From Verrucomicrobiota bacterium (GTDB lineage Bacteria; Verrucomicrobiota; Verrucomicrobiia; Palsa-1439), in assembly GCA_003152315.1 (NCBI GenBank), contig PLZV01000020.1, forward strand, positions 71,997-135,996: DNA of 64,000 bases, given 5' to 3'. Positions 3,963-57,148 of the stretch are shown here, piece by piece (positions within the stretch are counted from its first letter, which is position 1; every line of letters starts with the position of its first letter). The notes beneath the pieces are model-generated. The model had not been told where the DNA came from. It searched no databases and worked only from the letters and a program-made list of their open reading frames with translations. The position numbers were made by a program, and so were the translations under genes.

Positions 3963-5016
3963 TCACGGATTCATGGCGGCCACCAGCATTACATTCGCGG
4001 GAAAGGCCATCGTGCCGCTGGCGCGCGAGATCACGACCCGCCCTTCTTCGAGCGGCTCGCGCAACGCTTCGAGCACGTCGCGGTGGAACTCCTGCAATTC
4101 GTCGAGGAACAGCACACCGTTGTGCGCTAGGCTGATCTCGCCGGGCGTGAGATTCGCCGTGCCACCGAGCAAGCCCGCGTTGCTCGTCGTGTGATGCGGC
4201 GAGCGGAACGGACGCGTGGCGACCAACGCCTGTCTCTTGGGCAACAAACCGAGAATGCTGTGGATCTTGGTCGTCTCCAGTGCCTCGTCGAGATTCGAAT
4301 TCGGCAGCACCGTCGGCACCCGCTTCGCCAGCAACGTCTTGCCGCTACCCGGCGGACCAATCATCAAAATGTTATGGCCGCCCGCCGCCGCGTCTTCCAG
4401 CGCGCGTTTCACATGCTCCTAGCCTTTGACATCGACGAAATCGACATCGTAACTGCGTTGTTCCTGGAAAATCCTGGCGGGATCCTCGCGAAGCGGTTGC
4501 AGTTCCGTTTGCCAGCTAAAAACTCCGCAACCTCGCGCAGGTTTTTGGCGGGATACACATCAATGCCCTGGACCACCGCCGCTTCCACCGCGTTGTCCGC
4601 GGGAACGATCAGCCCGCGCTTCTTCTGGTCGCGCGCGCAAATCGCAATCGGTAACACGCCGTTGACGCTGCGGACTTCGCCGCTGAGCGCGAGTTCACCC
4701 ACGATGGCGTAGTCATCAAGGTCTTTGGCGACGATCTGTTCGCGCACAGCGAGGATTCCCACCGCAATCGGCAAATCAAAATTCGGCCCTTCCTTTTTTA
4801 CATCCACCGGCGCCAAATTCAGCGTCAGTCTACCCACTACAAACTTGAATCCACTATTCTCAATCGCGGTTTTCACCCGATCGCGGGATTCTTTGACAGC
4901 AGCATCGGGAAGACCAACAATGATGACTTGCGGTTGTCCCCAGCCAGAATTGACTTCGATTTCTATCGGGTAAGCGTCGACCCAAGAACGGCTGCAGAAT
5001 GAACTTTAGCCAGCAT
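3963..5016 (-). pseudogene. comM: Decayed comM/yifB (Mg-chelatase-like AAA+ ATPase)
   Basis: Intact YifB/ComM proteins (~510 residues) are AAA+ helicases that aid branch migration in natural transformation. From the ATG at 5016 the relic reads MLAKVHSAAVLG, then loses one G near 4982 and resumes in another frame as VDAYPIEIEVNSGWG, GLPDAAVKESRDRVKTAIE. A second one-base loss near 4509 (in an A run) shifts the frame again within AEFLAGK-TELQPL. A TAG at 4419-4421 replaces the expected Gln in DVKG(Q)EHVKRAL. The Walker A motif GPPGSGKT and the Walker B region LFLDELQEF are intact after that. The gene breaks off with a TGA right after VAAMNP, where the C-terminal third should follow. Four independent lesions make it non-functional. 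Confidence 0.88.
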
Positions 5017-40359: not shown

Positions 40360-43300
40360 TTACGGCGATGCGATCCGATAGAAGCGATTCGGCGGCGGGG
40401 GATTATTCGTAAACGTTTCCGTAAAGATCACCGGATCCGCCCCAAAGGTGCCGTTGGTCAGAACACTCCACTGGTTCACCGGCAAGGTCAGGTCGCTCGT
40501 CGCGAGCACTCGGTAGTTTTGTCCGGCCTGCCCGCTGAAAGTCACCTGCGCCGTTCCCGGTTCCATGGTAGTCCCCACCACCGTCGGTGTCACCAACGGG
40601 AAGATGTTCGCAGTCAAACCCGCGGGTGGAGTCAACGTGTAATTGTCGGCGGCAGTCCCGACCAGGCTTAAGTTGCTAACGGTCACCGAGATGGCCGAGC
40701 CAGGATCCGGAGAGGCAAAGGTCGCGATATATCCGCTGGTGGACAAATTGACGTTGGTCGCATCCGCGCTCAATATCCCAGTCAGCATTACGTTGGTAGC
40801 GGTAATCGTTGCGGCGGTTGTGCCGTCATACACTTTGTTGTTCGCCGCAACCCCGGAAAGAATCGACGCTGCCAACGGATAAATCGTGCCGTTCGTGCTG
40901 GAGACAAAGGTGTAGTTATAATTGTTGCCGCTGTTGCCGTCGCTCACGATACCGGACGGTATGAGCGTCTTGCCGTTGCCCGCACTCGGGTCGGAGTAAC
41001 TCTGTGTGAAGCTGCCCGTATCCCCAAATTGAATGCTGCCGGAGGTAATGGCGGGCTGCGTGGCGCTGGCGGTCGTCCCATCATAATTCTTGCTGTCAGC
41101 CGCTGCTGTCACGGTGATGTTGGTTGGGTTGATGGTGCCGATCGCGGCGGAAGCCGAGGTGCTCGACAAGACATAATTTGTGGATGACGCGCCCAAAATG
41201 GCCAGGCCCGTAACCGTCACCGTCTTGCCAGCGCCCTGATTCCGATTATCATAGGCTCCTTTGGCTGGTTCGTTTAACGTCACCATATCGCCACTCACGA
41301 CGCCCGTCAGTGTATAGTTGCTGGCGGTCAGCGTGGCGAAGCTCGTTCCGTTGTAGGTCTTGGTGACCGTGCCTGTTAATCCCGCAGTCAACGTCGCCTG
41401 GGTCACCACTTGCGAGAGAGCTGGCGAGTTGCTGCTGGCGCCGTAGAAAGAGTCTCCTCCATACACGGCGGTGATGGACCAGGTGCCGGCGGCAAGTTGA
41501 GTAGAGGAGGTGATCAGGCTGGCGTTGCCATTGGCCTTGAAAGAGCCTGTGCCCAGTCGCGTTGACCCATTGTAGAACGTAACCGTCTCTCCCGTGATGC
41601 CGCTTAGGGGTACGCCGTTGGTCTCGACCGTGGCGGTGAATGTGACCGGGTTGCCATACGTTGACGGGTTGGTGCCGGACGCCAATGCAAGGGTCGTCGC
41701 GTTCGTGCCCGTCACCATCGGGATGGTGTACACCGCCATCGTATAGGGGGGAATGGCGACACTGAACGAATTGCCCACACCGAAAACCGTGTTTGAGGAT
41801 GGAGCGCTCGTCGGCACCTCTTGGGTGGTGCTGAAATTAGCCTGGCCGAAGATATACTGGGTACCGGTGGTTGCCAGCGGCGCATTTGCGATCACCACAT
41901 TGACCGTCTGGATTGACGAGATGCTCTCGTTGAGCAGGAGCACGCCTACGTTGCCGTTCTGCTGCCGCGTTGCCTGCACCCGAAGAGTGCTCGTGTCCGA
42001 GGTTGAGCTGACGACCACGTCGCCGGGTAGCGCCATTTGATGCAGCGTCTTGATCCCATAAAACGTTTCTCCGCGGGTGAGAGCAGAGGAGCCGCCCAGG
42101 AACGCCGTCGCGCCCATCTCAAGGAAGCAGATGTTTGTGACACCATAGCTCATCCAAGTGGAATAGGAGTCCACGTCGAAAAGCATCGTGACGGGGCCAA
42201 TGATCGGCTGCCCGTTTGCATTTGTGACCAGACTGCCGGTATATCCGAACTCGGTGATGAATATCGAAACGTTGGCGGGGTCGTTGGGCCGATACTGGTT
42301 GATCCAGTCCTTCAGACCAGAGCTGGTGCCGGTGTGCGGACTGACGCCATTGATCATCGAGGGGATGTTCGCCGCGGGTAGAGGCAACAGGCCGCTGCCG
42401 TTGTCGTTGTTGCCATTGTAAGGGTACCAGTGGGCAATGATGAAATCGATGTTGCTGGCGCACTGGGACAATACTTGCGGTGTCCAGTGCTGACCACTGA
42501 AAACGTCCCAACTGTAATCTCCCAAGGGCGTGCTGACCACAGCGCCGATCTTGATCGTGGGATCAACGGCTTTCATCGCCAGCGAAAATTGTTTGACCTG
42601 CTGCCCATACGTAGCGGGCGAAAGCGCGGAGTTGCCGGCGCGGGTGTGAGACGTGTAGGGATAGGGTACCGCGTAATTTACGGAGTATCCATTGCCACCG
42701 CCGTAGTAACCCGAGCCGAACGTTTCATTGCCAATCTCCCAATACTTGACGCCGACCGGCGTGGGATGATTGATGGCGAGGAAATTGAACGTAGAATCGT
42801 AAACCCCATTGGAGGTCGCCCAGGACTGGTATTGGGCCTGGGTCGAGGACCGCAGTTTTGCCCAGAACCCCACCGTTTTCCAGTTGTTACTCTGGGAGTC
42901 GGTGCCCAAGGCGATGTCATTCGTCGTGCCGTAAAGTGCTGCGTTGCCATTGGCGTAGGCGACCCACGCGGCGGCTTCCGGTGGTTCGGCATTGGTGGAA
43001 GGAACCACCAGTTGCGTGTGACCGGCATTCCAAAGCTGGCCGGAGCCGAAATTGATCGTGATGACCGCCTGAGATTGGGCGTTGCTGAGAAGCCCGACGA
43101 AACTTCCAAAGTCAGTGTTTGGTCCCTGATAGCCATAGTTTCCGGCTTGACCCCACCAGGGGGTCAGCTTGTTCACGGACCAGTGGAACACATCGGCATA
43201 TCCTCCGCCCGGATAACGCAGCGTATTGACGCCAGATTCAATCAGCCGGCCGGGCAAAGCGGCATTGCCATCCTGATTGTCATACACCGACGTGTGCATC

Positions 43301-43491
43301 CCGTAAGCTGTAGTGGCTATCGGGAAAAGGTTGGAGGTTACATTTACGGTAACGTTCGCGGAAAACGCGGGCAACGGACTGGACAGAAGAACGAAAAGAC
43401 CACCCACCCGGAAAAGCATGCCGACTGCGGTTTGAACAACCAAAGAGTCGCCCCCAACGCGGTTTGCCGCGTTCCCAAGCGCGGCTCTCAT
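40360..43491 (-). CDS. Secreted clan GH-A glycoside hydrolase with Ig-like and YDG repeats
   Basis: A 1043-residue secreted protein. A hydrophobic leader (TAVGMLFRVGGLFVLLSSPLPAFSA) precedes a TIM-barrel domain, about residues 55-600. That domain has VNTLRYPGGGYADVFHWSVN, putative acid/base Glu in GVKYWEIGNETFG and nucleophile Glu in IFITEFGYTG, a spacing typical of clan GH-A (GH39/51/79-like); I cannot assign a family. An Ig-like domain follows (VTFTATVETNGVPLSGITGETVTFYNG). Then come three YDG-type repeats (KTYNGTSFATLTASNYTLTG, KNYDGTTASATQPAITSG, KVYDGTTAATITATNVMLTG) and an end QNYRVLATSDLT...NRFYRIASP. Its start overlaps the stop of the family X gene by four bases, so the two are translationally coupled. 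Confidence 0.8.
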   Translation of the reverse strand: MRAALGNAANRVGGDSLVVQTAVGMLFRVGGLFVLLSSPLPAFSANVTVNVTSNLFPIATTAYGMHTSVYDNQDGNAALPGRLIESGVNTLRYPGGGYADVFHWSVNKLTPWWGQAGNYGYQGPNTDFGSFVGLLSNAQSQAVITINFGSGQLWNAGHTQLVVPSTNAEPPEAAAWVAYANGNAALYGTTNDIALGTDSQSNNWKTVGFWAKLRSSTQAQYQSWATSNGVYDSTFNFLAINHPTPVGVKYWEIGNETFGSGYYGGGNGYSVNYAVPYPYTSHTRAGNSALSPATYGQQVKQFSLAMKAVDPTIKIGAVVSTPLGDYSWDVFSGQHWTPQVLSQCASNIDFIIAHWYPYNGNNDNGSGLLPLPAANIPSMINGVSPHTGTSSGLKDWINQYRPNDPANVSIFITEFGYTGSLVTNANGQPIIGPVTMLFDVDSYSTWMSYGVTNICFLEMGATAFLGGSSALTRGETFYGIKTLHQMALPGDVVVSSTSDTSTLRVQATRQQNGNVGVLLLNESISSIQTVNVVIANAPLATTGTQYIFGQANFSTTQEVPTSAPSSNTVFGVGNSFSVAIPPYTMAVYTIPMVTGTNATTLALASGTNPSTYGNPVTFTATVETNGVPLSGITGETVTFYNGSTRLGTGSFKANGNASLITSSTQLAAGTWSITAVYGGDSFYGASSNSPALSQVVTQATLTAGLTGTVTKTYNGTSFATLTASNYTLTGVVSGDMVTLNEPAKGAYDNRNQGAGKTVTVTGLAILGASSTNYVLSSTSASAAIGTINPTNITVTAAADSKNYDGTTASATQPAITSGSIQFGDTGSFTQSYSDPSAGNGKTLIPSGIVSDGNSGNNYNYTFVSSTNGTIYPLAASILSGVAANNKVYDGTTAATITATNVMLTGILSADATNVNLSTSGYIATFASPDPGSAISVTVSNLSLVGTAADNYTLTPPAGLTANIFPLVTPTVVGTTMEPGTAQVTFSGQAGQNYRVLATSDLTLPVNQWSVLTNGTFGADPVIFTETFTNNPPPPNRFYRIASP

Positions 43492-44135
43492 GTTCCGCCT
43501 AGCTCTGACGCAGTCGCCGGGGTGATAAACGAATAATACTTGTCATACCATTCCTGTGGGGTCTTCGGTGCGTTGCTGGGTGGTGGCTTGGTAGAAGGCA
43601 GAACCGCCCCATCCAGAACTCCTTGCTCAAGAAGAGGTTGCGCAGTATCGGCATTGGCGAAACGGACGACGAACAGCTTCGGGCGCGTTGAGGGCAATTC
43701 CCGTACGTTCTGCGCGCTCAACTGGGGCGCCCCGATGAATGACACCAGCGCGGCCACTTGCCGGTACTGCCCCAATACCGAGCGATAGTTTTCGAATGTC
43801 CACGCAGTCCCGCTTCCCACGCGGACTGGGGGGACGCTGCCTTTATCAACCACGTGCAAGCCCGCCTTCTGAAGCGCCTGACACATGGCGAGGACATCCG
43901 GCGGGCCGCCAGGGTGATTTGCGTCATCACTGGGCGGACCCCACATCAACACGACAACGTCCCCATGCCCCCCGAGCAGTTTCGAGATTCTCTCCGCGGT
44001 GACCTGAGTGAAGGCTTGAGAAAGATTCTGGGTGGCTCCGTCAACGAACTTCGATCCGGTAAAGAACTTGTACAGCATCACCCCCGAAATGGCCATCGCC
44101 AGAAGCGCCCCGATCATGAGAGCTCGTTGATTCAT
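43488..44135 (-). CDS. Membrane-anchored family X protein (copy 1), coupled to clan GH-A enzyme
   Basis: A 215-residue protein with an N-terminal membrane anchor (ALMIGALLAMAISGVMLYKFF) and an extracytoplasmic domain. Fixed points are LGGHGDVVVLMWGPPSDD, GGPPDVLAMCQALQKAGLHVV, the W(T)FENYRSVLGQY segment, LVSFIGAP, RPKLFVVRFA, LLEQGVLDGAVL and PQEWYDKYYSFITPATASELGG. A second copy at 54456-55103 matches along its whole length, and a relic lies at 54012-54160. The alternating strand-helix pattern suggests a Rossmann- or periplasmic-binding-like fold, but I recognise no named family. The start at 44135 is fixed by homology and a GGGGGATAGGTTCG leader shared with copy 2. An ATGA overlap with the clan GH-A gene suggests coupled synthesis. 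Confidence 0.8.
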   Translation of the reverse strand: MNQRALMIGALLAMAISGVMLYKFFTGSKFVDGATQNLSQAFTQVTAERISKLLGGHGDVVVLMWGPPSDDANHPGGPPDVLAMCQALQKAGLHVVDKGSVPPVRVGSGTAWTFENYRSVLGQYRQVAALVSFIGAPQLSAQNVRELPSTRPKLFVVRFANADTAQPLLEQGVLDGAVLPSTKPPPSNAPKTPQEWYDKYYSFITPATASELGGT

Positions 44136-44309
44136 CGAACCTATCCCCCGCTCAAATTGCCGCACACATTCATTGAAGAAGGGGCTGTTTCACACGACTG
44201 CGCCTATCTGGCTACCTCCACGCACCTGCAGCCAGAGTTAATCCTATTTCCGTAGCTGCTAGCTGCATCGTGATGTTCGGCGAACATACTATGACCCGTC
44301 TGTGCTCCA

Positions 44310-51652: not shown

Positions 51653-54082
51653 TCAGCGGTCTTCCGAATTGTGGATTTTCCAGGTGACCTTGCCCGCGAG
51701 CGGATCGCTGACGAGCTTGAATTCGCGGCCTTGTTTTGTCAGCGAGAACAGGTGGAGCGTGTTATCCGACGGCAGGCAAACAAGTCCGTTGACCGTCCTC
51801 GCATCTTTCGCGAAAACGACGAGATCAAGTTTCGACCAGTCCATTTGCGTCGTGGATTGCGCGAGCTGGATTTGTGGAATCGCCGTGCCGTCGCGTACAA
51901 GCATCACCACGGGAAGTTTACCGGCTTCAATTTTCTGCCAGCCGCCCGGGTAATTCTTCCCGTTCTGGTAATCAATCCAGGTTCCCGGCGGCAGATAAAC
52001 CTCGCGCGCCGTGTCGGCTTCGTGCATGAGTGGCGCAACGAGAATGCTCGAACCATAAAGATATTCGTCGTCCACGAGCCAGGAGCCGGGATCGTTGGGA
52101 AATTCGATGAACAGCGCGCGCACCATCGGCAGGCCGTGTTCGGAACAATCCCTGGCCTGGGCATAAACGTAGGGCATGAGGCGATACTTCAACTCGTCAA
52201 TCGCGCGAAACTCGTTCAGGAAATCATCGCCGTAATTCCACGGTTCCTTCGGCGCAAGGCCGTGGCAGCGGCTATGGGAACTCAACATGCCGAACGCGAG
52301 CCAGCGGGCGAAGAGATCCTTGTCCATGTTCGCGACGGAGTTGGCCGTGAAACCGCCGACATCGTGGCTCCAGAAGGAAAAGCCCGAAAGACCGAAGGAC
52401 AGGCCGCCGCGCAATTCGGCGGCCATACCCTGGTCGGTGCTTTCCGCGTCCCCACCCCAATGGATCGGATAGCGCTGGCTTCCGGCCCAGGCGCTACGCG
52501 CCCAAATGATGTGTTCGCCGGTGGTTTTCAACGTGACGTCCGCGACGGCCTTGTTGTAGCGCAGCGGATACAAATTGTGTTCGTAAAAACCGGTGCGGCC
52601 ATCGGCAAAAATCCCGTTCTTCGGCGCGGCCTCGCCGAAATCCACCTTGATCGCGCCGACGCCCATCTGCAAAAGATTCGCCAGCTTGGCTTGATACCAC
52701 TCGACCGCGGCGGGATTGGAAAAATCCAAAACGGCATCTTCGTAAGGCAGATTTCCTTTCGCGTCCCGCACGACAAGGTTTTTCTCCAGGAGCTCGGGGA
52801 AAAGTTTGTTTTTCGGCACGAAGTACGGCAGTTGCCACAGCGAGATGTGGAAACCGTCGTTCTTCAAATCCGAAATCATCTTTTGCGGATCGGTGAAGCG
52901 TGAGGTGGAGAATTGATAATCGCATCGCCAGTCGGTCTCGAACCATCCGGTGTCGAGATGGATCACGTCGCAGGGGATTTTATTTTCGCGCAGTTGCGCC
53001 GCGACGTCGCGCACCTGTTTCTCGCTCGAATAGGTACACCGGCTCATCCACAAGCCAAACGACCACAGCGGCGGCGTGGGCGATTTGCCGGTAAGCGTGG
53101 TGTATTCGTCGAGGATGTCCTTGGGCGAGCCGAGAAAAACGAACAAATCGACTTCGTCATCGCCGATCATCAGCGCGTTGACGCCGCTGAAGGAATTTCC
53201 GAAATCGCAGGTGATCGGCGTCGTCGTATGTAGGAACATGCCGTAGCCACGGCTGCTCATGAAAAACGGAATCGGTTTGTACATCTCTGGATTTTGAATT
53301 CCGTTCGCGTCACCAGTCCACAGCACAATTTTTTGGCCACGTTTGTCCAGACCGCTGAACGACTCGCCGCAGCCGTAGATTTTTTCGCCGGGAGACAGCG
53401 TGAACGCGGCATTGAAGCTGCGCGAGTAATCCTCCGCGCGTCGCACGAAGGCAAACGGCAGGATCGGCGTGAACGAGGTTCTGTTATCCGACGTGTGGTC
53501 GGTCCTGGTTAGAAGTTTTCCTGTCGCGTCGCGGATTTCAATGTGCCACGGATTTTCCAAAATCGTTACGGAACCGAATTGACTGGAGTAGCGATGGCCG
53601 CCCTCGGCCTTTGAGTATTGCCATGAATCATCCTTCGGCACCGGCTCGGCGAGCATCAATGTGTCGGTCTGCTTCGCAAACTGCGGTCCGCTGGTGAGGC
53701 GAATTCGCATGGTCCTGGGGGAAACGAATTCGACGGAGAACGGCAGCAGCGGACTGGCTTCGTATTCGTTGGCGGGAAACTCGTTTGGTTCAACCGGCCT
53801 AAGGACCGCGAGCATGTTATCGAAAGCCTGCCGAGTGGAATACTGGGCGCGTTGGTAACGTATTTTGCCCGAATGTGTGGCGGGATCGAATTCAGCGAGC
53901 CGATCGGCCAGATAGTAGGTGTGTGAGAAATTCCGGAAGTCGCCACTGACATCCACCGGCTCGTTGAGCAGGGCCAGGGCCGGGCTGGCAGCAATGAGCA
54001 ACTGGAGCGCGCAGACCGGCGCGCGGAAGCGCCTGGCAAACGACTTGAACGTCCGGCGGGCCGGCAGGGTCCTTTGCATCAT
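51653..54082 (-). CDS. GH31 alpha-xylosidase (YicI-like), secreted; 5' end overlaps a family X relic
   Basis: About 809 residues. The signal peptide region MMQRTLPARRTFKSFARRFRAPVCALQLLIAASPALA is unusually Arg-rich. The GH31 core is clear: LWSFGLWMSRCTYSSEKQVRDVAAQLRENKIPCDVIHLDTGWFE, nucleophile Asp in AIKVDFGEAAP, HIIWARSAWAGSQRYPIHWGGDAESTDQG with the acid/base Asp, and FSFWSHDVGGF. The KVDFGE form matches YicI-type alpha-xylosidases rather than alpha-glucosidases. The first ATG is at 54082; an in-frame TTG at 54112 is less likely. In another frame the same DNA (54012-54160) encodes a relic of family X, so the signal-peptide region lies on recycled sequence. First gene of the GH31-GH2-GH74 operon. 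Confidence 0.88.
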   Translation of the reverse strand: MMQRTLPARRTFKSFARRFRAPVCALQLLIAASPALALLNEPVDVSGDFRNFSHTYYLADRLAEFDPATHSGKIRYQRAQYSTRQAFDNMLAVLRPVEPNEFPANEYEASPLLPFSVEFVSPRTMRIRLTSGPQFAKQTDTLMLAEPVPKDDSWQYSKAEGGHRYSSQFGSVTILENPWHIEIRDATGKLLTRTDHTSDNRTSFTPILPFAFVRRAEDYSRSFNAAFTLSPGEKIYGCGESFSGLDKRGQKIVLWTGDANGIQNPEMYKPIPFFMSSRGYGMFLHTTTPITCDFGNSFSGVNALMIGDDEVDLFVFLGSPKDILDEYTTLTGKSPTPPLWSFGLWMSRCTYSSEKQVRDVAAQLRENKIPCDVIHLDTGWFETDWRCDYQFSTSRFTDPQKMISDLKNDGFHISLWQLPYFVPKNKLFPELLEKNLVVRDAKGNLPYEDAVLDFSNPAAVEWYQAKLANLLQMGVGAIKVDFGEAAPKNGIFADGRTGFYEHNLYPLRYNKAVADVTLKTTGEHIIWARSAWAGSQRYPIHWGGDAESTDQGMAAELRGGLSFGLSGFSFWSHDVGGFTANSVANMDKDLFARWLAFGMLSSHSRCHGLAPKEPWNYGDDFLNEFRAIDELKYRLMPYVYAQARDCSEHGLPMVRALFIEFPNDPGSWLVDDEYLYGSSILVAPLMHEADTAREVYLPPGTWIDYQNGKNYPGGWQKIEAGKLPVVMLVRDGTAIPQIQLAQSTTQMDWSKLDLVVFAKDARTVNGLVCLPSDNTLHLFSLTKQGREFKLVSDPLAGKVTWKIHNSEDR

Positions 54083-54160
54083 CAGCGGGCCGACCCCACA
54101 TTCGCATGACAATATTCGATCCGAAGAATGGCCGCTCGCTGAAGAGCTTGACGGCTCGTC
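54012..54160 (-). pseudogene. Relic of a third family X gene, overlapped by GH31 signal peptide
   Basis: In the frame not used by GH31, minus-strand DNA reads AVKLF...GSNIVMRMWGRPADDAKDPAGPPDVQVVCQALPRAGL. It aligns with the family X core (MWGPPSDD...GGPPDVLAMCQAL.KAGL) at about half of the positions. The N-terminal anchor is lost, and nothing recognisable follows the CQAL...GL segment. The GH31 ATG at 54082 lies inside this relic. Confidence 0.72.
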
Positions 54161-54217: not shown

Positions 54218-54448
54218 TTAATTGTCACTCGCCGTTGGCGTCCACATGCCAAACGGCTGTCCCGGCGTCCCGCCGACCTTCTTGGTTTTGCCGAGAGTCT
54301 GCCGCGGTGTGAGCCATTGCACGTGGCCGTCAACAGAAGCGCCGCCAAAATGCCGACTAATAGCGATCACTACCAGTAGTTCGATCAGTGTGAACCCTGT
54401 ACGAGTGTTTCGAACTCCCCTGATTGGATTTCGCATATTCAACCTCAT
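54218..54448 (-). pseudogene. Internally deleted pseudopilin gene
   Basis: The 76-residue frame joins a normal prepilin N-terminus ([15 protein letters not shown]) to the last part of the neighbouring pseudopilins ([15 protein letters not shown]...[17 protein letters not shown]). The full copy at 55138-55959 has about 220 residues between these parts. At the joint an extra G shifts IIGILAA into ISRHFGGAS before the frame is restored at VDGHV. The His of H-X9-DG is missing, so it is most likely dead, though still open. Confidence 0.8.
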
Positions 54449-54455
54449 TTATGTC

Positions 54456-55103
54456 TTATCCGCCCAGCTCTGACACAGTCTCCGGGGTGACAAACAAATA
54501 ATACTTGTCAAACCATTCCTGAGTCGTCTTTGGTGGACGGTTGTTCGAGGCCGATGCGTCAGGAGACAAAATCGCCCCATCCAGAACTCCCTCTTTAAGA
54601 AGTGGCTGCGCGGTCTCTGCTTCGGCGAAACGGACGACGATCAATTTTGGGCGCCGTTTGGGTAATTCCCGGATGTTATCCGCGTTCAACCGGGGGGAGC
54701 CGATAAATGATATCAGGGCGTCCACCTGCGGATAATGTTCCAGTACCGCGCGATAGTTCTCGGCCGTCCATATAAGCCTGCCTGGTACGCGGACCGGAGG
54801 AACACTGTTCTTTTCCACTACGTGCAGTCCGTCCTTCTCAAACGCCTGACACATGGCTAGAACATCCGGCGGGCCGCCAATGTGAAGTGCGTCATCGCTG
54901 GGTGGACCCCACATTAACACAACAACGTTCCCGTGCCCTCCCAGCTGATGTGAAACTTTCTCCGCTGTGCCCTGAATGTAGGCTTGGAATAAACTCTGAA
55001 CGGAGCTGTCAACGAACTTCGGCGCAGTGAAGAACTTGTACAGCATCACTCCCGAAAGGGCGATCGCCAGAAGCACCCCGATCATGAGACGTCGTTGGCT
55101 CAT
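54456..55103 (-). CDS. Membrane-anchored family X protein (copy 2)
   Basis: A 215-residue protein, collinear with copy 1 (43488-44135). Anchor LMIGVLLAIALSGVMLYKFF, then LGGHGNVVVLMWGPPSDDALHIGGPPDVLAMCQAFEKDGLHVV, the LIWTAENYRAVLEHY segment, ALISFIGSPRLNADNIRELP, RPKLIVVRFAEAETAQPLLKEGVLDGAIL, and QEWFDKYYLFVTPETVSELGG. Roughly 60 percent of positions agree with copy 1 by eye. The SD-like GGAGG is nine bases before ATG. It starts 34 bases after the pseudopilin stop (55138) and ends just before the deleted pseudopilin. Family and function unknown; outward-facing location is inferred from the anchor. Confidence 0.82.
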   Translation of the reverse strand: MSQRRLMIGVLLAIALSGVMLYKFFTAPKFVDSSVQSLFQAYIQGTAEKVSHQLGGHGNVVVLMWGPPSDDALHIGGPPDVLAMCQAFEKDGLHVVEKNSVPPVRVPGRLIWTAENYRAVLEHYPQVDALISFIGSPRLNADNIRELPKRRPKLIVVRFAEAETAQPLLKEGVLDGAILSPDASASNNRPPKTTQEWFDKYYLFVTPETVSELGG

Positions 55104-55137: not shown

Positions 55138-55959
55138 TCATTGGGTATTATCGCTTGCTGTTGGCGTCCACATGCCAAACGGTTGTCCCGGCGTCCCCAA
55201 GGTCTTCCCAGCTTTACCGAGCGTCTGCCAAATGGTGAGCCATTGCACATGTCCATCAACAAACAGATAATTCCAGCCTCCCGAATGCCATGGGCGGGAA
55301 TACGGGTCACCGCTCTGCGTCTGGCCAAACGGAAATCCGTTATTGCAGTACGGACTATAAGGCCCCACCGTCGAGTCCGGGCAGCCACAATCAGAGGCAG
55401 CCTGATATCCGTAATTGTTGGACAGGTTGGGATGTTCGGCGACCGCGATCGTACCCGACGGATCGCCAATGGCCGCCAGACTGACTCCCAAGCCGAGTCC
55501 TCCCGATAGTGGTGTCATCATTTTTAGATATCCTGAATCATCCAAGTCGATGTTGATCGAGTACGACCGGGGCGAGGCGGGCTGATTGTTATGCGTCTTC
55601 ATATCCATGGGACACTGCCAGACTTTGGCCCACCTGGTATCATTTACCGCGGCAGCACTGGAAACATTCCTGCCGGCCATGTAGGGCGATAGCAGACTAT
55701 CAAACGATGGCGTGGTGCCGTCGGCCCATTTCGCCGTCGCCGGCGGGAACCAGTCATTAAAATCGGACGAGTACATCTCCAACGCGATGCCGATCTGCTT
55801 CAGGTTGCTGACACAAAGCGCCGCCCGCCCTTTGTCCCGCGCTTTGTTCAGGGCCGGCAACAGCATCGCCGCCAAAATGCCGATGATGGCGATCACCACC
55901 AACAGTTCAATGAGGGTGAAAGCGGCTCGCGCGTTTCGACTGCCAGACTCCATACGCAT
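55138..55959 (-). CDS. Pseudopilin-like protein with H-X9-DG motif (copy 2)
   Basis: About 273 residues. [60 protein letters not shown] gives a prepilin leader, processing site and helix. The globular part contains [38 protein letters not shown], a Cys-rich CGCPD and [19 protein letters not shown] (H-X9-DG). It is closely related to the next gene upstream (56159-57076), even in the segment before [10 protein letters not shown] at 55959 or 55953 are the likely starts; the homologous upstream segment has no ATG here. Its role may be as a minor fibre or secretion pseudopilin; no assembly genes are nearby. Confidence 0.82.
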
Positions 55960-56075
55960 GCCCAAACGTGAACCCCGAACTTCACACTCCCGCGGACTGG
56001 CGGTCGGTTGAAGTTCAAGCTCTGGCGGGTTGGGGATAAACGAGGCGGTTTCAGGTCGCGATGGCGTTCCATTCC

Positions 56076-56136
56076 CGCAGACGCGGTAGTGCCGCGCGGG
56101 TTTATTCGTCGCGCCGACGGTATTCACCATGTTCAT
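56076..56136 (-). pseudogene. Relic of the C-terminal YYRVR module between two pseudopilin genes
   Basis: Minus-strand DNA reads [22 protein letters not shown], matching [24 protein letters not shown] at the end of the 57427-59922 protein at both protein and base level (most of 60 bases agree). No other part of such a protein is present here. It suggests that a surface-protein gene once preceded the 55138 pseudopilin, as 57427-59922 still precedes the 56159 pseudopilin. Confidence 0.7.
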
Positions 56137-56158
56137 TAAACTCCTTGTACCCATTGCG

Positions 56159-57076
56159 CTAATCGCCCGCTTGCGGGGTCCACATGCCATAAGGTTTCCC
56201 CGGCGTCCCCGGAGGTATTTTTCCCTTTCCAGGGCCGAGCGTCTGCCAGGGTGTGAGCCATTGCACATGGCCATCCACGAACAGATAATTCCAGCCTCCC
56301 GAGTGCCACGGCGGATAAAGCCCGCTTTTATCCTGGTCATAAGCCTCTACGCCCATGCAAAAGTCATCCGGAGACACCAACCCGTCCGGGCACCCACAGC
56401 CAGACTCAGCGTCATAACCGTAGTCGTTCCATTGGCTGGGATGTTCGCAGACCATGATCGTCCCCGATGGATCATCGATGCGCCCCAGACTGACTCCCAA
56501 GCTCCCATAACCCGGCGTTCCCCATCCGGAGGTCACGCCTCGAAATCCTGTAAAATTATCCAGCCGGATGTTTATCGAATAGGATCGCGGAGGGACGGCA
56601 AGATTGAGGCGTGGTATGCGGTCGGTGGGACACTTCCAGATTCCGACCGACACACTATTGCTGGGACTGGTCACGGACGAGGCGTTGTTTATGTGAAGCA
56701 TATACGGCGCAAGTATCCGGTCAAACGACGCGCCATCCGAATTCATCCGGGCTGCCGGTGGCAACCAGTCATCATAATCCGAGCTGTACAGTTGCATCGC
56801 AATGCCGATTTGTTTCAGGTTGCCGATACACGCTGCTGCCTGCCCCTTCGCGCGCGCTTTGGACAAGGCCGGCAATATCATCCCTGCCAAAATGCCGATG
56901 ATGGCGATCACCACCAACAGTTCAATGAGGGTGAAGGCGGCCCGCGGGTTTCGACTGCCAGACTCCATACGCCCGCACAAACGCGAACCCCGAACTTCAC
57001 GCTCCTGTGGACTGGCGGTCGCCTGGAGTTCAAACTCTGGCCGGTCCGGGATTAATGAGTCCGTTTCGGATCGCAT
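56159..57076 (-). CDS. Pseudopilin-like protein with H-X9-DG motif (copy 1)
   Basis: About 305 residues. An unusually long leader ([19 protein letters not shown]...SGSRNPRAA) precedes [47 protein letters not shown]. The globular domain has [43 protein letters not shown] and [25 protein letters not shown] (H-X9-DG), ending [16 protein letters not shown] at 57076 has GGGA six bases upstream; ATG at 57088 and the internal MESGSRN are alternatives. It is most similar to 55138-55959, and the two form a tandem duplication. Confidence 0.82.
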
Positions 57077-57148
57077 AAGTATTCCCATCCCTTCGTGGTG
57101 TCAGCCGATACCAATTTCGCTCTGCACCAGAAGCTATTCATACTGATA

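Follow-up and report, generated by a model that had tools for sequence, protein, structure and literature searches.

Family X of Verrucomicrobiota, a membrane-anchored protein related to one lobe of sugar-binding proteins and encoded beside pseudopilins

Two genes within a 64,000-nucleotide stretch of a Verrucomicrobiota genome (the window, that is, the whole stretch of DNA analyzed) encode related proteins of 215 amino acids that we refer to as family X. Several lines of computation support the view that family X derives from a type I sugar periplasmic-binding protein (PBP), of which it retains lobe 2, at the C-terminal end, anchored in the membrane by an N-terminal helix. The first lobe of the ancestral protein is absent and its ligand-contacting residues have been lost. 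In many genomes the gene lies just downstream of a pseudopilin gene, and in the window the two have been duplicated as a cassette. We propose, at about even chances, that each family X protein serves a dedicated pseudopilin of type II (H-X9-DG/DUF1559), the product of the gene just upstream, as its partner in docking or assembly.

Two copies and a relic cassette in the window

Copy 1 (43488-44135, minus strand) comprises, according to its translation and an AlphaFold model, a transmembrane (TM) helix at residues 3-26 followed by a single PBP-type lobe. Copy 2 (54456-55103, minus strand), also 215 amino acids long, is identical to it at 147 of 215 residues (68%, E 2e-110). Translation of the plus strand at the coordinates of the copies is interrupted by stops. 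These two full copies had been reported in a preliminary description of this DNA, and all of the motifs quoted there occur in both. No third full-length copy was found in the 4.9-Mb genome, and in a tree of the family the pair from the window stands apart on a long branch.

The gene that follows copy 1 (40360-43491, minus strand) overlaps it in operon-like fashion by the four bases ATGA, as had been noticed earlier, and encodes a secreted, arabinofuranosidase-like enzyme of 1043 amino acids with Big_3_5 and YDG domains. The N-terminal half of this enzyme had no match in Pfam at 1e-3; a weak match to the arabinofuranosidase ArfA (E 7e-4, far under the cut-off), together with motifs, points to a putative place in clan GH-A. 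Upstream of copy 1, a weakly scoring segment at 44216-44299 (minus strand) may be a pseudopilin remnant, with 2 of 1000 dinucleotide shuffles scoring equally high. Copy 2 has a pseudopilin gene 34 bp upstream (55138-56340, minus strand), with N_methyl (ORF residues 135-161), DUF1559/SBP_bac_10 and H-X9-DG-CTERM domains and a true start probably near 55960. A tandem paralog with the same domains (56159-57088, minus strand) shares approximately 70% DNA identity with it. We considered and rejected an assignment of these neighbors to the "Verru_Chthon cassette" pilins (TIGR02596), as the prepilin motif alone scored, far under the cut-off. Several filament-assembly ATPases are encoded in the source genome. 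Elsewhere in the window, a gene for a YifB/ComM-like Mg-chelatase ATPase (3963-4876, minus strand) is apparently broken into two ORFs that overlap, and its 3′ part seems to be cut short.

A relic of family X corresponding to residues 59-117 (53928-54116, minus strand; E 6e-15) overlaps the start of a gene for a GH31 enzyme (51653-54112, minus strand) in a different frame. The preliminary description had recognized this relic as the remnant of a third copy, and it is real, but more than family X has decayed here. Just upstream of it, at 54221-54445 (minus strand), lies a relic pseudopilin in which a prepilin N-terminus is fused by an internal deletion to a C-terminal end reading DGHVQWL... Read from copy 2 towards the GH31 gene, the DNA thus carries both ends of a pseudopilin gene, first 5′ and then 3′, followed by residues 59-117 of family X, which indicates that the decayed unit was a pseudopilin-plus-X cassette rather than family X alone. 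The probable signal-peptide start of the GH31 enzyme, an ATG near 54082, falls on the X relic. The DNA of this probable start and n-region (MMQRTLPARRTFKSF..., 54026-54112, minus strand) is 78% identical to that of family X, in another frame. Apparently, a relic gene supplied the start for a new one.

Fold, ancestry and membrane anchor

Neither of the two proteins of the window had a family above the cut-off in Pfam, NCBIfam or PADLOC scans, a search of the PDB with a single sequence gave no match, and a viral fold library returned nothing at E ≤ 0.001. The family was to this extent rightly called unrecognized, as no curated family covers it, but its fold is recognizable. When the Pfam search was extended across the family, 18 of 29 members matched Peripla_BP_4 (PF13407), with a best E-value of 6e-7, whereas the family member P0001 alone stayed under the Pfam cut-off (E 0.24). 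The match is limited to profile positions after ~103 of 258. In agreement with this, a profile of the family matched type I sugar PBPs in the PDB over chain residues ~110-270, which is the C-terminal lobe (5hqj with the best E-value, 7e-8; 2ioy, E 1e-6).

Structure prediction and fold comparison of the 215-residue protein, which had been suggested at the outset, led to the same lobe. AlphaFold2, run on a 64-sequence alignment, gave a pLDDT of 91.2 and a pTM of 0.82 for the full-length protein, and 90.9 and 0.88 for its soluble part. In the model, the TM helix (3-26) and a second, long one (33-53) precede an alpha/beta lobe, in agreement with the single anchor and Rossmann-like domain of the preliminary description. 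A Foldseek search of the PDB with this model placed type I sugar PBPs at the top and, lower down, mGlu and taste receptors, which contain the same kind of domain. The query-normalized TM-scores were only ~0.5 with a large rmsd, probably because the alignment spreads across a two-lobed target. The two-lobed, hinged Venus flytrap architecture itself is not present in family X, whose reading frames are mostly 200-300 amino acids long and in which the TM helix takes the place of lobe 1.

To follow the ligand-binding residues, we mapped RbsB onto family X through the 2ioy alignment from the PDB profile search, using an RbsB sequence and lobe-2 ribose contacts that we take to be R141, F164, N190, D215 and Q235. 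In copy 1 these positions are occupied by P, P, A, A and P, so that none of the five is kept, and each contact is retained in at most 5 of ~80 family members. What family X conserves instead is an SFxGxP motif, a PR pair at the former hinge and a C-terminal FxxxYxxxT. The idea that the old ligand cleft might have become a conserved protein-docking face found no overall support, as the cleft loops taken together are no better conserved than the rest of the protein; within them, only the GxP and PR positions stand out. Family X is likely no longer a sugar-binding protein, given that it has one lobe, that the contacts are lost and that ribose is not bound by isolated halves of the ribose-binding protein (RBP; PMC10601554). 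The preliminary description had named a strong match to a family such as an ABC-transporter component as a result that would speak against its reading. This result was obtained by half: fold and ancestry are those of a solute-binding protein, but with lobe 1 and the sugar contacts gone no transporter function follows.

Near the N-terminus, 60 of 83 members have one hydrophobic segment and 21 have two. Lysine and arginine residues are more numerous on the N side of the segment in 51 members and fewer in 22, and this preponderance of positive charge on the N side favors a periplasmic position of the lobe. We infer from the charge bias that the lobe would face the periplasm.

Distribution and gene neighborhoods

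A search with a single protein detected family X in 11 of 57 genomes. With a profile built from 29 sequences, we found it in 33 of the 286 genomes sampled from the class, in 4 of 11 genomes of the family and, in a phylum-wide draw, in 41 of 195 genomes, with a maximum of 17 matches (one of them weak) in a single genome. Two tandem X-like genes with different N-terminal membrane segments occur in housekeeping surroundings in other genomes of the phylum (L140, L141, and L142). Both of the further genomes from the genus of the source genome lack family X. Since these same-genus genomes have 23-38 prepilin-motif genes, pseudopilins do not need family X.

A pseudopilin gene on the same strand lies within 300 bp upstream of 32 of 83 X genes, compared with 6 of 569 other genes at the same loci (p = 8e-26, Fisher test with genes treated as independent). 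Within the class of the source genome, an upstream pseudopilin was found for 29 of 57 X genes within 300 bp and for 34 of 57 within 1 kb. Prepilin-motif genes number 12-80 per genome in the 12 genomes counted, and family X must therefore go with only a subset of pseudopilins. Distances between X proteins correlated with those between their linked pilins (r 0.68, 37 pairs), although species relatedness contributes to this overall value; within genome G007 the correlation was r 0.43 (p 0.004), and within G026 there was none (r 0.04, 6 pairs). The "pilin-linked" label is clustered on the X tree, requiring 19 changes as against ~28 when shuffled. The linkage is not universal: fifteen members from other classes, whose membrane segments differ, form a well-supported clade with no pseudopilin nearby, and several X genes of Verrucomicrobiia are found among housekeeping genes.

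The genes downstream of family X are diverse (GH116, NAGPA, BNR, P450, and PhyH), and some are on the opposite strand. The coupling to a glycoside hydrolase described earlier is therefore a local feature, and we rejected it as a general rule: the recurrent partner is the upstream pseudopilin, while the downstream genes vary and include the cytoplasmic families P450 and PhyH. One clade (L155, L156, L158-L163) has a more elaborate arrangement, in which a pseudopilin, family X and another pseudopilin-like protein, one in which no prepilin motif scored, are followed by a protein of 650-970 amino acids, which is an NAGPA phosphodiester glycosidase where scanned (L160). Three cassettes of G026 (L048, L054, and L056) have a LacI-type regulator immediately upstream, in the order LacI-type regulator, pseudopilin, X. 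ABC transporter genes are not recurrent beside family X; sugar ABC genes were seen at L052 only, on the other strand.

Possible roles of family X and comparison with known systems

The genetic linkage leads us to propose that family X is a docking or assembly partner of its upstream pseudopilin, a reading to which we assign roughly even chances. The joint decay of pseudopilin and X in the relic cassette and the filament-assembly ATPases of the source genome also speak for it. Against it speak the X genes that have no pseudopilin nearby, the missing correlation in G026, the lack of overall conservation in the former cleft and the same-genus genomes that have prepilin-motif genes but not family X. 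In this proposal, family X would be held in the inner membrane close to where the filament is assembled, and there its lobe, presumably periplasmic, would bind the globular domain of the pseudopilin, or cargo brought along with it, in place of a sugar. Such binding may contribute to assembling the filament, or to export, when polysaccharides are used. More tentatively, half of a PBP may have been repurposed in Verrucomicrobiota as an anchored docking unit matched to individual pseudopilins, each pair forming a duplicable, locus-specific cassette that would tune a type II-like filament to its polysaccharide locus; this broader proposal is possible rather than probable.

The main rival is that family X is an anchored, substrate-specific chaperone or escort of the adjacent secreted enzyme, in the manner of LipB/CpaB, with the link to pseudopilins reflecting only a shared type II export. 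This reading is strongest for copy 1, which overlaps its secreted enzyme gene by 4 bp, and it gains from the precedent of T2SS chaperones that have one TM anchor and are encoded beside their substrate (PMC4713064), as well as from the glycosidase-like nature of some downstream genes (GH116, NAGPA, and BNR). Family X has the single N-terminal TM segment of such chaperones, its periplasmic side being judged from the charge bias. Overall we consider it rather unlikely, as the recurrent neighbor of family X is encoded upstream and is a pseudopilin, and the downstream genes range from glycosidases to cytoplasmic P450 and PhyH or are on the opposite strand.

Alternatively, family X may be a PBP-derived envelope sensor of sugars or oligosaccharides that signals to regulators of polysaccharide loci. 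Its descent from sugar PBPs, the LacI-type gene just upstream in some cassettes (L048, L054, and L056) and the pairing of PBPs with membrane sensors elsewhere (5xsj, XylFII-LytS, is among its structural matches) are consistent with this idea. We nevertheless regard it as improbable for a single lobe in which all five lobe-2 ribose contacts are replaced and which has no cytoplasmic signaling domain, its N-terminus ahead of the TM helix being short; the failure of isolated RBP halves to bind ribose (PMC10601554) also argues against it. There is similarly little likelihood in a third view, by which family X is a degenerate half of a PBP that fills some general role in the inner membrane apart from pseudopilins, as in the single-copy clade of other classes, and its linkage in Verrucomicrobiia reflects hitchhiking in amplified cassettes. 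The 15 members of that clade do lie in housekeeping surroundings with no pseudopilin nearby, but the linkage recurs in many families of the class that have a single copy of family X, which is poorly explained by one hitchhiking event.

A partner for a subset of pseudopilins would matter because genomes of Verrucomicrobiota and Planctomycetes carry dozens of unexplained DUF1559/H-X9-DG pseudopilin paralogs. In a planctomycete, DUF1559 proteins were amplified to 68 paralogs (PMC10632474), and 67 homologs of pulG-like pseudopilins were reported in a verrucomicrobium (PMC13274419), in both cases without a mechanism. A recurrent partner with a recognizable fold offers a concrete handle on what some of them do. 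Our searches of open-access papers, in which absence is a weak argument, turned up no account of a single-lobe family that is anchored and has a link to pseudopilins.

The DUF1559/H-X9-DG-CTERM pseudopilins (PF07596, TIGR04294) are the genetic partner of family X, which itself has no prepilin motif (GFxxxE), no Gsp/Pil homology and no Pfam or NCBIfam match above the cut-off. Copy 1 resembles the T2SS chaperones LipB/Lif and CpaB (PMC4713064) in having one N-terminal TM segment, a domain that is probably periplasmic and a secreted enzyme as neighbor; however, the folds differ, and a pseudopilin is a more regular neighbor of family X than a substrate is. With type I sugar PBPs (PF13407; ribose-binding 2ioy and arabinose-binding AraP, 6sw4), family X has the C-terminal lobe in common, in sequence profile as well as in fold, but it lacks lobe 1, adds a membrane helix, replaces the ribose contacts and has no recurrent ABC genes. 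The closest parallel to a lobe on its own comes from the ribose-binding protein of Thermotoga maritima, the isolated lobes of which (RBP-N and RBP-Trunc) fold alone (PMC10601554, PMC2630998), RBP-Trunc being the same lobe as family X. Whereas these halves were made in the laboratory or may arise as an artefact of translation, and combine with their counterpart into a heterodimer that binds sugar again, family X is natural, anchored and has lost the binding residues. As a phylum-wide family of single PBP lobes, it bears on the question of whether such lobes function alone.
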